Virus record (IMG/VR): IMGVR_UViG_3300007513_002727
Location: 1-64,000 of that record
Direction: 5' to 3' (one strand)
Source: a virus
Length of the DNA: 64,000 nucleotides
How positions within the stretch are numbered: position 1 is the stretch's first letter; every line of letters starts with the position of its first letter. Made by a program: the position numbers and the translations under genes. Positions 1-50,435 of this stretch are shown here, one piece after another. Under the pieces are notes generated by a model, which saw only the letters and a list, made by a program, of their open reading frames with translations, ran no database searches and was not told where the DNA came from.

Positions 1-120
1 GTTGGCGGTAGAGCTCGGGTAGATGAGCATCAGAATCATAAGCTGAATGCCGTAGGTGCAATTCCTGCTACCGCTACTCAAGACAATAGGCCCTATGCTT
101 TTAACACTTGGGCCTACTGA
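1..120 (+). CDS. tail fibre/collar-like protein, C-terminal end (partial)
   Basis: Open from the left edge and ending in TGA at 118-120, leaving 39 residues. The tail contains VDEHQNHKLNAVGAIPA and ends NTWAY, a Gly/Ala/His-rich style seen at the C-termini of phage collar and tail-fibre proteins. It is convergent with the minus-strand gene that ends at 128, with only 7 nt between them. Too little is present to identify the family firmly. Confidence 0.5.
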   Translation, partial: VGGRARVDEHQNHKLNAVGAIPATATQDNRPYAFNTWAY

Positions 121-24244: not shown

Positions 24245-25681
24245 ATGGAACTTGTCATACTAATGGCAGGTATTGTTTATGGCTTGATCATTGGCCTAAT
24301 ACCAGCCGCAGGAGCAACAACAGGACTAATCACACTATTTGGATTCATGCCCTACTTTGTAGGCGACCCGTACTTGGGTGTAATCTTTTGTGTAGCAGTT
24401 GTAGCCTCATCCACAACCGGTGATTCTTTTAGTGGTGTGCTGTTAGGCATACCTGGAGCCAACTCTGCGGCCGCAACAATGGTAGATGGGTTTCCTATGG
24501 CCAAGAATGGAGAAGCAACCAGAGCCTTGTCAGCGGCAATAACATCATCAACCTTTAATGGATTGCTCTTTGGATCACTTACATTTTTGTTCTTACCTTG
24601 GTACACGCAAGTTGTTATGTATATGGGCATACCCGAACTGTGGGCATTAGTATTATTAGCATTTGTCACTGTAGGTTTTGTTTCCACTAGGAAATATGTT
24701 AGAAGTACACTAGCTATAGTGCTAGGAATAACAATAGGACTAGTTGGTGTTGATGTAAACAATGTACCTCGTTTCACAATGGGTTGGAGATACCTTGAAG
24801 ACAGTGTACAGATACTGCCTTTTGTTGCAGGACTGTTTGCTATACCAGAACTTTGGAATGGTTGGTTCAATAGGAAAAAAACAACAACAATAAAAGCAGA
24901 ACAAGGCAGTTGGCAAGATCTAAAACAAGGAATCAAAGACACTATTAGATGTTGGAAGGATAGTATTAGAGGAGGAGCCATAGGTTCGTTTATAGGACTA
25001 CTACCTGGACTAGGTGGTGCAATGGCTGACTGGTTAGCATACGGTTCTACTGTGGCCGCTAACCCAAAAGAAAAATTTGGAGAAGGAAATGTAAGAGGCA
25101 TAGTAGGAGCAGAAGGAGCCAACAATGCACAAAAAGCCTCTTCATTTATTCCAACAGTTTTATTTGGTATTCCAGGTGCACCCTTTGCCGCGATACTGAT
25201 GGGACTATTTTTATACCTAGGTATTGACTTAGGATCTCCAGATACATTTTACGATAAAAAATTATTTGACAGCATGACTTTTGCTTTCCTTATAGGAACA
25301 ATGATAACTGCTGTTATTTGTTATGGACTGGCATATTTCGCAGGGTGGGTAACACGTATTCCATATGTGTATTACTTTCCTTTCATACTTGCTGTTATTG
25401 TTTGGGCAACCTTACAGTACACAGGCGGGTGGGAAGACCTTGCAGTACTTGTAGCATTCTCTATATTAGGATTGCTATGTAAAAAATTCCAAGTTAGCAG
25501 GCCAGCACTGTTAATTGGGTACCTGTTAAGTGACAGGATATACAATCTCACTTACCAATTAACATCACTCCATACGGTAAATGATTTAATTACAAGACCA
25601 CTCTTTATTTCTATAATGATTTGTGTTATACTTTTACTATATTGGGGAATAACAAAAAGGAGTCGATTAGACTATGCTTAA
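24245..25681 (+). CDS. tctA: tripartite tricarboxylate transporter, TctA-like large permease
   Basis: Multi-span inner-membrane subunit of a TctABC carrier for organic acids. The N-terminal half carries LIIGLIPAAGATTGLITLFG and VLLGIPGANSAAATMVDGFP; the repeat in the second half has GLLPGLGGAMADWLAYG, GAEGANNAQKASSFIPT and LFGIPGAPFAA. 478 aa against about 500 for the family, lacking part of the N-terminus. A tctC gene follows with an 8-nt overlap; tctB is absent. No ribosome site before the ATG. Confidence 0.88.
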   Translation: MELVILMAGIVYGLIIGLIPAAGATTGLITLFGFMPYFVGDPYLGVIFCVAVVASSTTGDSFSGVLLGIPGANSAAATMVDGFPMAKNGEATRALSAAITSSTFNGLLFGSLTFLFLPWYTQVVMYMGIPELWALVLLAFVTVGFVSTRKYVRSTLAIVLGITIGLVGVDVNNVPRFTMGWRYLEDSVQILPFVAGLFAIPELWNGWFNRKKTTTIKAEQGSWQDLKQGIKDTIRCWKDSIRGGAIGSFIGLLPGLGGAMADWLAYGSTVAANPKEKFGEGNVRGIVGAEGANNAQKASSFIPTVLFGIPGAPFAAILMGLFLYLGIDLGSPDTFYDKKLFDSMTFAFLIGTMITAVICYGLAYFAGWVTRIPYVYYFPFILAVIVWATLQYTGGWEDLAVLVAFSILGLLCKKFQVSRPALLIGYLLSDRIYNLTYQLTSLHTVNDLITRPLFISIMICVILLLYWGITKRSRLDYA

Positions 25682-26720
25682 GAAAATAATATTGGCTTTG
25701 TTTATAATGACAACAACAGCCATGGCAGATTATAATTTAATTGTGCCACAAAAACCATCTGGTGGAACTTCTGTGTGGGCACAGATAGTTGTAGCAGAAT
25801 GGGAGAAACACTTAGGAGAAAAAATCAATTTGATTTATAAACCTGGTGCAAGAGATCAGTTGGGACCAAACGAGTTCCAAAATGAATTAAGGTTTGACGA
25901 CAAGACTATACTAGTATCACATGGTGGTAACGGTATATCGTATCTTGTTGAACCTGTTGATTACAATTATTTAGATTGGGAATCAATTGGACAGATGAAC
26001 TTGAATATCATTGTAGGTGCAAGAAACAAGGCCGATACTAAAAACGGTCCTATAAAGTTTCCATCAGGTTCTGGAATGACTCCAGAGATTATGGCAATCG
26101 TTATGTTGCTTACAGGACCAAATGGTGATCCAATTAAAACATTTGAAGACAAGATTGTTTGGGTAAAAGGAATGAAAGGGTCTGAAAGAAGACTTGCTTT
26201 TATTAGAGGTGACTTAAATGCAACCAGAGAAAACCCTGCCGCATATAAGAAACACGTGATACCTGTAATTGAAAAAGGTGATGCTTACACATGGTTCCAT
26301 CATGGACTACTTGATGTAAACACAGGACAACACGGAAAAGATCCTAACTTTACTGAACCAACATTCGAGGCTTTGTATAAAGCAACATACGGAGTAGCAC
26401 CAAGTGGTGACTTCTATGATGCATACAAACTTGTTAAGAGTTGGAGAGATGCACTGCAAAAAGCATTTTGGGTTAACAAAGGAAATCCAAACAAACAAAA
26501 ACTTGTTGATGCATTAAACAAAATGATAAATGATCTAGAATCAGTTGCCGCTATTGAGAAGAAAGTTGGCAAATACGAATGGAGAACAGGTGCTGACGGT
26601 GATGCCGCTGTGAGAACATTGAAGTCGTTTATTACACCTAAAGCACTGAAGACTTTGGTTAACTTTAAAAGAGAACAGTTAGGTTATAACACAGTCTACA
26701 AAGAGGAACTTACGCAATAA
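25674..26720 (+). CDS. tctC: TctC/Bug-type periplasmic binding protein
   Basis: Signal peptide MLKKIILALFIMTTTAMA, then YNLIVPQKPSGGTSVWAQIV, the start of the TctC/Bug fold that holds a carboxylate ligand between two lobes. 348 aa, close to family length. Translationally coupled to TctA. Known family members bind citrate, other dicarboxylates or aromatic acids; the ligand here cannot be read from sequence. Confidence 0.82.
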   Translation: MLKKIILALFIMTTTAMADYNLIVPQKPSGGTSVWAQIVVAEWEKHLGEKINLIYKPGARDQLGPNEFQNELRFDDKTILVSHGGNGISYLVEPVDYNYLDWESIGQMNLNIIVGARNKADTKNGPIKFPSGSGMTPEIMAIVMLLTGPNGDPIKTFEDKIVWVKGMKGSERRLAFIRGDLNATRENPAAYKKHVIPVIEKGDAYTWFHHGLLDVNTGQHGKDPNFTEPTFEALYKATYGVAPSGDFYDAYKLVKSWRDALQKAFWVNKGNPNKQKLVDALNKMINDLESVAAIEKKVGKYEWRTGADGDAAVRTLKSFITPKALKTLVNFKREQLGYNTVYKEELTQ

Positions 26721-48696: not shown

Positions 48697-49287
48697 TTAT
48701 TCCAACAGCTCGTGAATACCGTAATATAAGAAGTAAATTGCTAGGCCAGTAAATATCCAACGACTAGCTCTCCATATTTTAGCAACTGGAATTTTTCTAA
48801 TTTGTTTTGATGCTACTAGGCCGACTATAAGCAAAGCACCCAATCCAATCACAGCACCTAATCCAATACTCATTACAGATGTACCTGCGTACATTAATGC
48901 TGTAAGAAATGCTACAATTTCTGCGCCTTCTCTAAACACGGTAAGAAATACAATTAATGCCAATGCCAATATTGGTCCATTACTTTTTAAATTAGCCTGA
49001 ATAATTTTTGTATGTTGTACTGCTCCATGACAGAACCATGCTGTCCAAAACAATAATCCAGAGGCGGCCAGTGCCGTCCATCCTTCTACTGCTTCAAAGT
49101 CGTTTGCAATGAACTGTTGAGCAAAGTATCCTAATATCACTGCACAAACAAGTGCTAATGCTGTTGATCCTAATATTGTTATTTTTTGTCTATAATTGGT
49201 TACCATTAGCCAAGCCATCTGTACTATTAGATATGCTTCTAAGCCTTCTCTAAACCAAATAAACGTAGGTGCTAATGTTCCTGTCAT
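48697..49287 (-). CDS. FTR1/EfeU-type iron permease
   Basis: Inner-membrane iron transporter. REGLE at residues 13-17 (WFREGLEAYL) and REGAE at 119-123 (VFREGAEIVAF) are the paired RExxE iron-binding motifs of the family; about six hydrophobic spans. 196 aa against roughly 270-280, lacking part of the C-terminal region. A minus-strand late-like box (AATAAATAC near 49325) lies about 35 nt upstream. Next gene upstream is bL12. Confidence 0.85.
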   Translation of the reverse strand: MTGTLAPTFIWFREGLEAYLIVQMAWLMVTNYRQKITILGSTALALVCAVILGYFAQQFIANDFEAVEGWTALAASGLLFWTAWFCHGAVQHTKIIQANLKSNGPILALALIVFLTVFREGAEIVAFLTALMYAGTSVMSIGLGAVIGLGALLIVGLVASKQIRKIPVAKIWRASRWIFTGLAIYFLYYGIHELLE

Positions 49288-49361: not shown

Positions 49362-49733
49362 TTATTTCAACTCTACAGTTCCGCCGGCTTCTTCTAACTG
49401 CTTTTTAAGTTTTTCAACTTCTTCTTTTTCAATATCTTCTTTAACTGGTTTTGGTAAATCCTCAACAAAATTCTTGGCTTCTATTAACCCTAATCCTAAT
49501 ATATCTTTAATTGCTTTTAATACTGGAATTTTTTTGTTCTCACCAAATCCTGTTAGCATAACGGTTGCAGTTGCTTTCTCTTCTGCTGGTGCTGATGCTG
49601 ATGCTTGGGCAGGTGCTGATTGTAAGTTATCTAGGTCTATGTTCCACTCTTTGGCTAGTTTTTTAGATAGGTCTAGTGCTTCTAGAACTGTAAGTTGCCC
49701 TAGTTCCTTCACTAATGTATCTATATTTGCCAT
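49362..49733 (-). CDS. rplL: ribosomal protein bL12 (L7/L12)
   Basis: Ribosomal stalk protein that recruits translation factors. N-terminal dimer domain (1-36), Ala/Ser-rich hinge (40-55) and C-terminal factor-binding domain with KIPVLKAIKDILGLGLIEAK, which carries the conserved K...K...GLGLxEAK surface. 123 aa, full length. Last of three genes from the promoter at 50090-50118. Phage bL12 is known from marine viruses; it probably joins host ribosomes. Confidence 0.93.
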   Translation of the reverse strand: MANIDTLVKELGQLTVLEALDLSKKLAKEWNIDLDNLQSAPAQASASAPAEEKATATVMLTGFGENKKIPVLKAIKDILGLGLIEAKNFVEDLPKPVKEDIEKEEVEKLKKQLEEAGGTVELK

Positions 49734-49877: not shown

Positions 49878-50081
49878 TTATCTTCCTATCTTCTTTTTTC
49901 TACCAATTGGTAATTTTTGTTCTTTAACGAAAACCTCCCCTTTTTTCGTCTCCCACTCAATAGTTACCATCGGAGCCTTAGAAGATGCTTGAAACGACTT
50001 TAGAGCTTTCTTAAATGATGTTGCCTCAATTATTTTTTCTTCTGTTCCAGATATAATTTTAAATTCTCTCATTTTTGACAT
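49878..50081 (-). CDS. small basic protein (67 aa)
   Basis: FKIISGTEEKIIEATSFKKA is a small beta-alpha unit, followed by a basic tail (KLPIGRKKKIGR). First gene of the bL12 operon; the -10 ends 8 nt before the ATG, so the message has little or no leader. Function unknown. Confidence 0.65.
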   Translation of the reverse strand: MSKMREFKIISGTEEKIIEATSFKKALKSFQASSKAPMVTIEWETKKGEVFVKEQKLPIGRKKKIGR

Positions 50082-50089
50082 AATAATTT

Positions 50090-50118
50090 AATGTAACATA
50101 AGATTGACTTTTTGTCAA
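50090..50118 (-). promoter_or_regulatory. sigma70 promoter of the bL12 operon
   Basis: TTGACA, 17 bp, TACATT on the minus strand. It overlaps a TTGAC/GTCAA inverted repeat whose other arm could serve the plus-strand tmRNA. Confidence 0.7.
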
Positions 50119-50159
50119 CTGTATGCTTAAATATTAATAAGTTTGTTGACTAATAATTA

Positions 50160-50435
50160 ATAAGCGGACAAGACGAGAGTTCGAATCTCTCCACCTCCAC
50201 CAAATTTTGGTGGCTTATGTAATCCCTTTCGGGGGTGTTATTGGAAATCGATTGACGTCTAAACTTGTTACGAGAACTTGGACATGGTACTGACCTAACA
50301 GGCCGTTTTTAAATGCAAACAAAAGAGCATTAGGATTTGCTGACTTTACAGTTGGTATGTCTGAATTGAGATTAGCGGCGTAATAACTGTTTAATTTCTG
50401 GGGTTTGGCCCACCTCGCAACAGAACGGGCCACTT
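50160..50435 (+). ncRNA. ssrA: circularly permuted two-piece tmRNA
   Basis: Rescues stalled ribosomes. The acceptor piece comes first: T-arm GAGAG-TTCGAAT-CTCTC (50175-50191), acceptor strand CACCTCC (50192-50198), A, CCA (50200-50202). After 28 nt the coding piece starts with GGGGGTG (50231-50237), which pairs with CACCTCC including one G-U, then a D-loop-like TTGGAAATCGATT and GTCT, which can pair with AGAC before the T-arm. The tag frame starts GCA at 50315 (ANKRALGF...), ends SELRLAA, and stops TAA TAA (50381-50386): 22 codons. A hairpin TGGCCC/GGGCCA follows (50406-50432). Outer ends are approximate. Confidence 0.88.

Follow-up and report, generated by a model that had tools for sequence, protein, structure and literature searches.

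A tmRNA rescues stalled ribosomes and appends a tag to the incomplete protein. Circularly permuted, two-piece tmRNA genes are a known class in phages, and the gene described here is not new in that respect. ARAGORN has identified 53 of them, 50 in marine or aquatic phages; besides the one of phage Mosig they include that of Melnitz, which was studied in detail and for which the tagging of host proteins was suggested as a role (PMC9004378). The locus analyzed here raises the question why a phage should carry such an RNA, and what reads the long tag that it encodes. It lies in a window of 64,000 nt (positions 1 to 64,000 of the IMG/VR virus record IMGVR_UViG_3300007513_002727; the record extends past the window to 92,942 bases and is a linear fragment), and the virus, which has not been cultured, is a marine phage with SAR11 and OM43 myophages among its relatives.

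The permuted tmRNA gene and its structure

The original prediction was made from the sequence of the window and assigned to this phage a tmRNA gene of the permuted two-piece kind that specifies a long tag of its own. In the covariance-model search that had been proposed as a check, two Rfam models matched over their cut-offs: RF04321 (tmRNA_permuted) scored 80.8 bits (cut-off 47, E 6.9e-14) over the full model, and RF01849 (alpha_tmRNA) scored 59.2 bits (cut-off 50, E 8.6e-14) on the same locus, with an end-to-end match at 50083-50434. ARAGORN likewise calls a permuted tmRNA here. Together these results bear out the prediction and confirm window positions 50139-50434, plus strand, as a circularly permuted, alpha-type two-piece tmRNA gene. 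The features of the locus are collected in Table 1. The T-arm, the CACCTCC-A-CCA end, the 28-nt spacer, GGGGGTG and the 22-codon tag were all found at the coordinates predicted for them and fall inside the predicted span of 50160-50435; the span itself began too late to take in the beginning of helix 2, and the model matches from 50139 on.

Table 1. Features of the tmRNA locus and two adjacent genes, in window coordinates.
Feature	Position	Strand	Remarks
bL12 ribosomal protein	49362..49733	-	PF00542 88.5 bits, PF16320 30.1 bits
Divergent 67-aa ORF	49878..50081	-	small basic protein; near tmRNA in 22/26 family loci
Putative sigma-70-type promoter	50104..50132	+	TTGACT 50104-50109, 17 nt, TTAAAT 50127-50132
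Acceptor piece	50139..50202	+	RF04321 and RF01849 matches
Helix 2, 5' half AAGTT	50139-50143	+	opposite half AACTT 50275-50279
T-arm	50175-50191	+	T-stem 50175-50179/50187-50191
Acceptor 3' strand CACCTCC	50192-50198	+	followed by A73 50199 and encoded CCA 50200-50202
Intervening spacer, 28 nt	50203..50230	+	between the two acceptor-stem halves
Coding piece	50231..50434	+	RF01849 match reaches 50434
5' acceptor strand GGGGGTG	50231-50237	+	7-bp stem with 50192-50198 across the spacer
Resume region	inside 50231..50434	+	in coding piece, between helix-2 3' half and tag frame
Tag reading frame ANKRALGFADFTVGMSELRLAA	50315..50386	+	GCA..GCG 50315-50380, then TAA TAA 50381-50386
3' stem TGGCCC/GGGCCA	50406-50411 / 50427-50432	+	covaries in relatives

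With the alphaproteobacterial two-piece tmRNA (RF01849) the phage gene shares the gene order, the layout of acceptor, T-arm and helix 2 and the 3' CACCU.GCAACAGAA region, and the 3' region specific to RF01849 is present after the tag. It differs from the alphaproteobacterial RNA in being phage-borne, in having a 22-aa tag that lacks the customary DN motif and in a score that is only modestly over the cut-off (59.2 vs 50).

A DNA similarity search against cultured phages returned only short T-arm matches to tRNAs, and relatives were therefore taken from IMG/VR, where a scan for the acceptor/spacer/coding pattern yielded 115 loci. In an alignment of 37 relatives 93.9% of cells are paired (71.3% in shuffles, 37-48.5% when the structure is slid), compensatory changes occur in 23 of 29 pairs (18.2 in shuffles), and the covariation score is 0.613, compared with 0.209 in shuffles and ≤0.136 for slid structures. 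Pairing in the T-stem is complete (100% of cells), and each of its five pairs shows compensatory changes; the acceptor stem is paired in 100% of the 37 sequences, with two compensatory pairs. Three compensated versions of the acceptor stem were observed (GGGGGTG/CACCTCC, GGGGTGG/CCACTCC and GGGGCTG/CAGCTCC), always together with G3.U70 and A73: acceptor pair 3-70 is G.U in 37/37 relatives, the CCA is invariant, and A73 is present in 41/41 scorable loci. G3.U70 with A73 is the known alanine identity set of tmRNA. The thermodynamic fold of the lone sequence is only weakly better than that of shuffles (z -1.63), so that the case for a tmRNA is carried by the comparative evidence.

The spacer, which would be expected to be cut out in maturation, is unusually conserved in most of the tag family (37-sequence alignment). 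Base pairing between the spacer and the CCA end (TGGTGG to CCACCA) is possible and could affect maturation. Upstream of the gene, a TTGAC-N5-GTCAA palindrome spans the -35 box of the putative promoter; its TTGAC is invariant in 37/37 aligned relatives, several of which have TTGACA-17-TATAAT. A consensus promoter scan of the upstream region found sites no commoner than in shuffles, so the argument for this promoter comes from its conservation. The Rfam scan of the window found no riboswitch family, the glutamine riboswitch included, over its gathering score.

A conserved 22-residue tag

The tag ANKRALGFADFTVGMSELRLAA is 22 aa long, starts at the resume codon GCA at 50315 and ends in RLAA; a -LAA C-terminus is the normal ClpX degron. 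Its frame is backed by a conserved resume context, TAAATGCA, and by the same frame in 45 of the fetched IMG/VR loci, whose tags conform to A[NKT]x[KR]A[LF][GR]FAD...[LM]RLAA, 39 of them with a tag of 22 aa and six with one of 25 aa. The shorter tag reported by ARAGORN, GMSELRLAA, was rejected as a mis-start at an internal codon, the conserved frame being that of the full ANKRALGFADFTVGMSELRLAA. The commonest length of known tmRNA tags is 10 aa (PMC11915505).

Two tag searches of IMG/VR, one conditioned on tag residues and one unconditioned, based on the resume context and 3' region alone, turned up many contigs with this tag; the selection test rests on the unconditioned pattern. All 39 tags of 22 aa from the unconditioned search turned out to be members of the ANKRALGFADFTVGMSELRLAA family. 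The pN/pS ratio of the tag is 0.33 in frame, compared with 0.83 and 1.64 for the two alternative frames. Of the 22 columns at each codon position, 8, 5 and 17 are variable at the first, second and third position, respectively (binomial p 0.007 for the third-position excess). Codons 5-13 (A-L-G-F-A-D-L-T-V) and the terminal R-L-A-A are near-invariant, while codons 2-4 and 14-17 vary. The frame is thus conserved as a peptide and is under purifying selection. Phage proteins with a C-terminus resembling the tag were searched for and none were found.

Long tags are not confined to this family: of the 115 loci from the pattern scan, at least 36 have one. The selection signature recurs in another long tag, ANDNASNVFSFVDFSNARKYVNEDFAIAA (pS 0.218, pN 0.017, seven sequences), and four further families carry ANAFKPEVTVPVSIFADAELVAA, AEDADTFEFGALSFTGNTVGGEVAVAA, ATQRDSMRKNNVLAFVPRFVAPMQMAA and ANENFVPGAFTSLDMSMASEGELLAA. 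The five other long-tag families (23-29 aa; viral contigs L009, L011, L048, L004/L008 and L163/L172) all have members over the RF04321 cut-off. The pN/pS ratio is informative for the ANKRALGFADFTVGMSELRLAA family and a 29-aa family, whereas long-tag families B to E comprise too few distinct sequences. Tags of 14 aa with the same C-terminus as ANKRALGFADFTVGMSELRLAA, namely ANNNFAPSELRLAA and ANDNFASEELRLAA, occur in other viral contigs.

Sampling by RNR-beta similarity, which does not depend on the tmRNA, gave RF04321 matches over cut-off in 31/40 virus records. All five records with an RNR more than 80% identical and a complete tmRNA carry a ANKRALGFADFTVGMSELRLAA-family tag; records with a more distant RNR have ADENLALAA, ANDNFASEDYALAA or other tags. 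A permuted tmRNA was also found in the Pelagibacter phage HTVC008M (KC465899.1, 145161-145370, plus strand, locus L438; RF04321 90.6 bits), with the tag ANFNEYALAA. It is absent from the annotation of the record of this cultured SAR11 phage.

Neighboring genes, ClpX and ClpS

The genes around the tmRNA keep their order: RNR alpha/beta, PAAR and the gene of a 431-aa protein lie to one side, a 103-aa ORF and the gene of a ParB-like protein to the other. The tmRNA and the divergent 67-aa ORF stay together, and the block is inverted in some contigs. The 67-aa ORF lies ≤3 kb from the tmRNA in 15/17 loci of the ANKRALGFADFTVGMSELRLAA family, in 5/7 loci with other long tags and in 3/40 with short tags. 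Its product has no Pfam or PHROG match; it is predicted to fold as beta-beta-alpha-beta-beta (model pLDDT 87.7). No fold in the PDB matched at E ≤ 0.001, and one match was to an uncharacterized viral protein.

Phage-encoded bL12 and bS21 are known (PMC6375957), and the original prediction had taken the adjacent bL12 gene as a sign that the phage tunes host ribosome rescue. This functional argument is not supported: bL12 is near the tmRNA in only 6/26 family loci, compared with 22/26 for the 67-aa ORF, and we therefore ruled it out as a dedicated tmRNA partner. A host assignment from a bL12 genome scan pointed to Verrucomicrobia (45-52%); the method requires exact peptide words and the result was discarded. 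Elsewhere in the window, bL12 is adjoined by an FTR1-family iron permease-like protein (48697-49287, minus strand; PF03239, E 3.9e-10), two adjacent ORFs at 24245-26720 (+) without PHROG match resemble TctA-/TctC-type tricarboxylate transport proteins by eye, and the left end holds a tRNA-like match (4-76, plus strand; RF00005 41.7 bits) that ARAGORN does not call.

A better basis for the idea that the phage tunes host ribosome rescue lies outside the window, where the record carries ClpX and ClpS without ClpP, SmpB or SspB. ClpX is encoded at record positions 70499-71752 (NCBIfam equivalog NF003745, 534 bits, cut-off 359), and its alignment to a solved ClpX (8e91) has the GYVG pore loop, the RKH loop, the IGF ClpP-binding loop and the CxxC/CxxC zinc motif all present. 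The pore loops resemble those of E. coli, and the -LAA end of the tag should thus be read in the usual way. The region 70499-81000 of the record (G000; L158, L159) holds ClpX, a bS21-like protein, an Hsp20-type protein, DnaK, ClpS, a glutaredoxin-like protein, a ThyX-like protein, SufB and SufC, which for a phage is a large set of protein-quality-control and Fe-S genes.

ClpX was found in 13/13 contigs of ≥40 kb with a ANKRALGFADFTVGMSELRLAA-family tag, this record included, although these contigs share ancestry and do not represent 13 independent events. The other twelve ClpX proteins are 67-79% identical to that of this record, and ClpS is present in 12 of the 13 contigs. ClpX lies about 10-22 kb from the tmRNA, and the two do not form one operon. 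No ClpX was found in about 28 other tmRNA-bearing contigs of ≥40 kb of one survey set, and both ClpX and ClpS are absent from the complete short-tag relatives Mosig, HTVC008M and Melnitz. The related contigs G031 and G036 combine the short tag ADENLALAA with ClpX (about 50% identical) and ClpS; ClpX thus does not require the long tag. ClpP (PF00574), SmpB (PF01668) and SspB were detected in 0/15 records, with positive controls detected, an absence that for SmpB and ClpP is not final as the records are linear fragments (92.9 kb in the case of this phage). A self-sufficient phage trans-translation system, with its own SmpB and ClpP, was accordingly seen in none of the 15. As the lineage keeps the long tag and carries ClpX, the virus may steer protein destruction in its host.

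Proposed function and origin of the long tag

We consider it likely, with a probability of roughly 85%, that the gene gives rise to a working trans-translation RNA. Host tRNA-processing enzymes would cut the transcript into the acceptor and coding pieces, which would be joined by the acceptor stem and helix 2, and host AlaRS would charge the RNA with alanine through G3.U70. Together with host SmpB and EF-Tu the charged tmRNA would then enter stalled ribosomes and add ANKRALGFADFTVGMSELRLAA, and the tagged chains would most likely be degraded by host ClpP driven by ClpX, possibly the phage's own. The phage would thus contribute the specificity parts (tag, ClpX and ClpS) and the host SmpB and the ClpP peptidase.

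That the gene is instead a decaying, non-functional copy derived from a host, like the ssrA remnants at prophage attachment sites, is very improbable. Integration into host ssrA genes is known, and prophages can contain pieces of them (PMC9004378), but the phage gene is complete and retained lineage-wide, and over 37-45 loci it shows compensatory changes throughout, an invariant G3.U70 and selection on the tag frame. A chance or mis-annotated tRNA-like sequence, as might be suspected from the weak single-sequence fold, is contradicted by the two Rfam models over cut-off and by the covariation, and we regard it as practically excluded.

For the tag itself two explanations have to be weighed, and neither reaches even odds. 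The long tag may simply have been inherited, either from a past alphaproteobacterial host or through an in-frame insertion into a tag of the AN(D/N)NFA..SELRLAA type, and been kept as a good substrate; its co-occurrence with ClpX would then reflect only shared ancestry. This explanation has a somewhat less than even chance in our estimate. It accounts for the 14-aa tags with the same C-terminus, for the 22- and 25-aa variants, which differ by an insertion after the core, and for the distribution of the tag, common to the nearest RNR relatives while distant ones have others. It fits less well with a core that stays near-invariant over synonymous change, pointing to a specific role of the inner part, or with the recurrence of several unrelated long tags in phage permuted tmRNAs. 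The alternative, which we put forward tentatively and as the less probable of the two, is that host proteolysis is re-specified: inner ALGFAD would be recognized by the phage ClpX or by a phage adaptor (e.g. the 67-aa protein), and phage-tagged proteins would be handled by phage ClpX with host ClpP and escape the host adaptor. Such a role is suggested by the near-invariant core between variable codons, by the ClpX found with every tag of this family on the longer contigs and missing from the about 28 other tmRNA contigs surveyed and the complete short-tag relatives, by ClpS without ClpP, and by the absence of the DN motif that alphaproteobacterial-type tags commonly have at the N-terminus. On the other hand, the pore loops with which the phage ClpX would read the tag match those of E. 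coli, with no change of specificity visible at the LAA end, the ADENLALAA contigs have ClpX and ClpS yet a short tag, and the evidence comes from one lineage with few independent events. Extended to the family, re-specification would mean that the phage lineage takes over host Clp specificity with a tagging RNA bearing a private 22-25-aa degron, with ClpX and with the N-degron adaptor ClpS, inner ALGFADLTV being the private recognition element, and that long distinct tags evolved repeatedly among phage permuted tmRNAs, in at least six families of 22-29 aa; taken jointly, these propositions are doubtful.

Comparison with known systems shows which parts have precedents. Melnitz and Mosig are, like this phage, marine myophages with a permuted ssrA of alphaproteobacterial type, and SsrA is annotated in both; the tmRNA of Mosig scores 93.6 bits with RF04321, over the cut-off. 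The tag of Mosig has 9 codons (GEDNFALAA, ARAGORN call) compared with 22 here, and in both phages the gene lies beside that of a late-transcription coactivator and not, as here, with the RNR block to one side and the 67-aa ORF to the other. Moreover, they lack the ClpX and ClpS that this phage has, and the ssrA of Melnitz carries the glutamine riboswitch that was not found in our window. Extended tmRNA tags are known from mycoplasmas, where Lon is the protease that recognizes them (Ge and Karzai 2009, Gur and Sauer 2008; reviewed in PMC9382460). The likeness would be that of a long tag evolving in concert with the proteolytic machinery by which it is read; mycoplasma tags, however, terminate in NYAFA and are directed to Lon in cells that lack active ClpXP, whereas the phage tag keeps -LAA and travels with ClpX. 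Phages that bring specificity parts of the Clp system are known as well: jumbo phages encode ClpX and ClpS, in a paper that makes no mention of tmRNA (PMC7824862), and phage pf16 encodes SspB without a tmRNA (PMC5587285). In contrast to these, a tmRNA with its own tag, ClpX and ClpS co-occur here across a lineage. In the open-licence literature we came across neither a description of a conserved long phage tag nor one of a phage tmRNA together with a phage ClpX.

With regard to the reason why phages carry tmRNAs, a conserved phage degron that occurs with ClpX and ClpS and without ClpP and SmpB narrows the question to whether the phage unfoldase prefers the phage tag. If it does, phages re-aim host proteolysis by means of a tagging RNA, and the tag and ClpX would make up a natural orthogonal degradation system. 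Even if there is no such preference, many marine virus genomes share in this tag an unusual, conserved degron.
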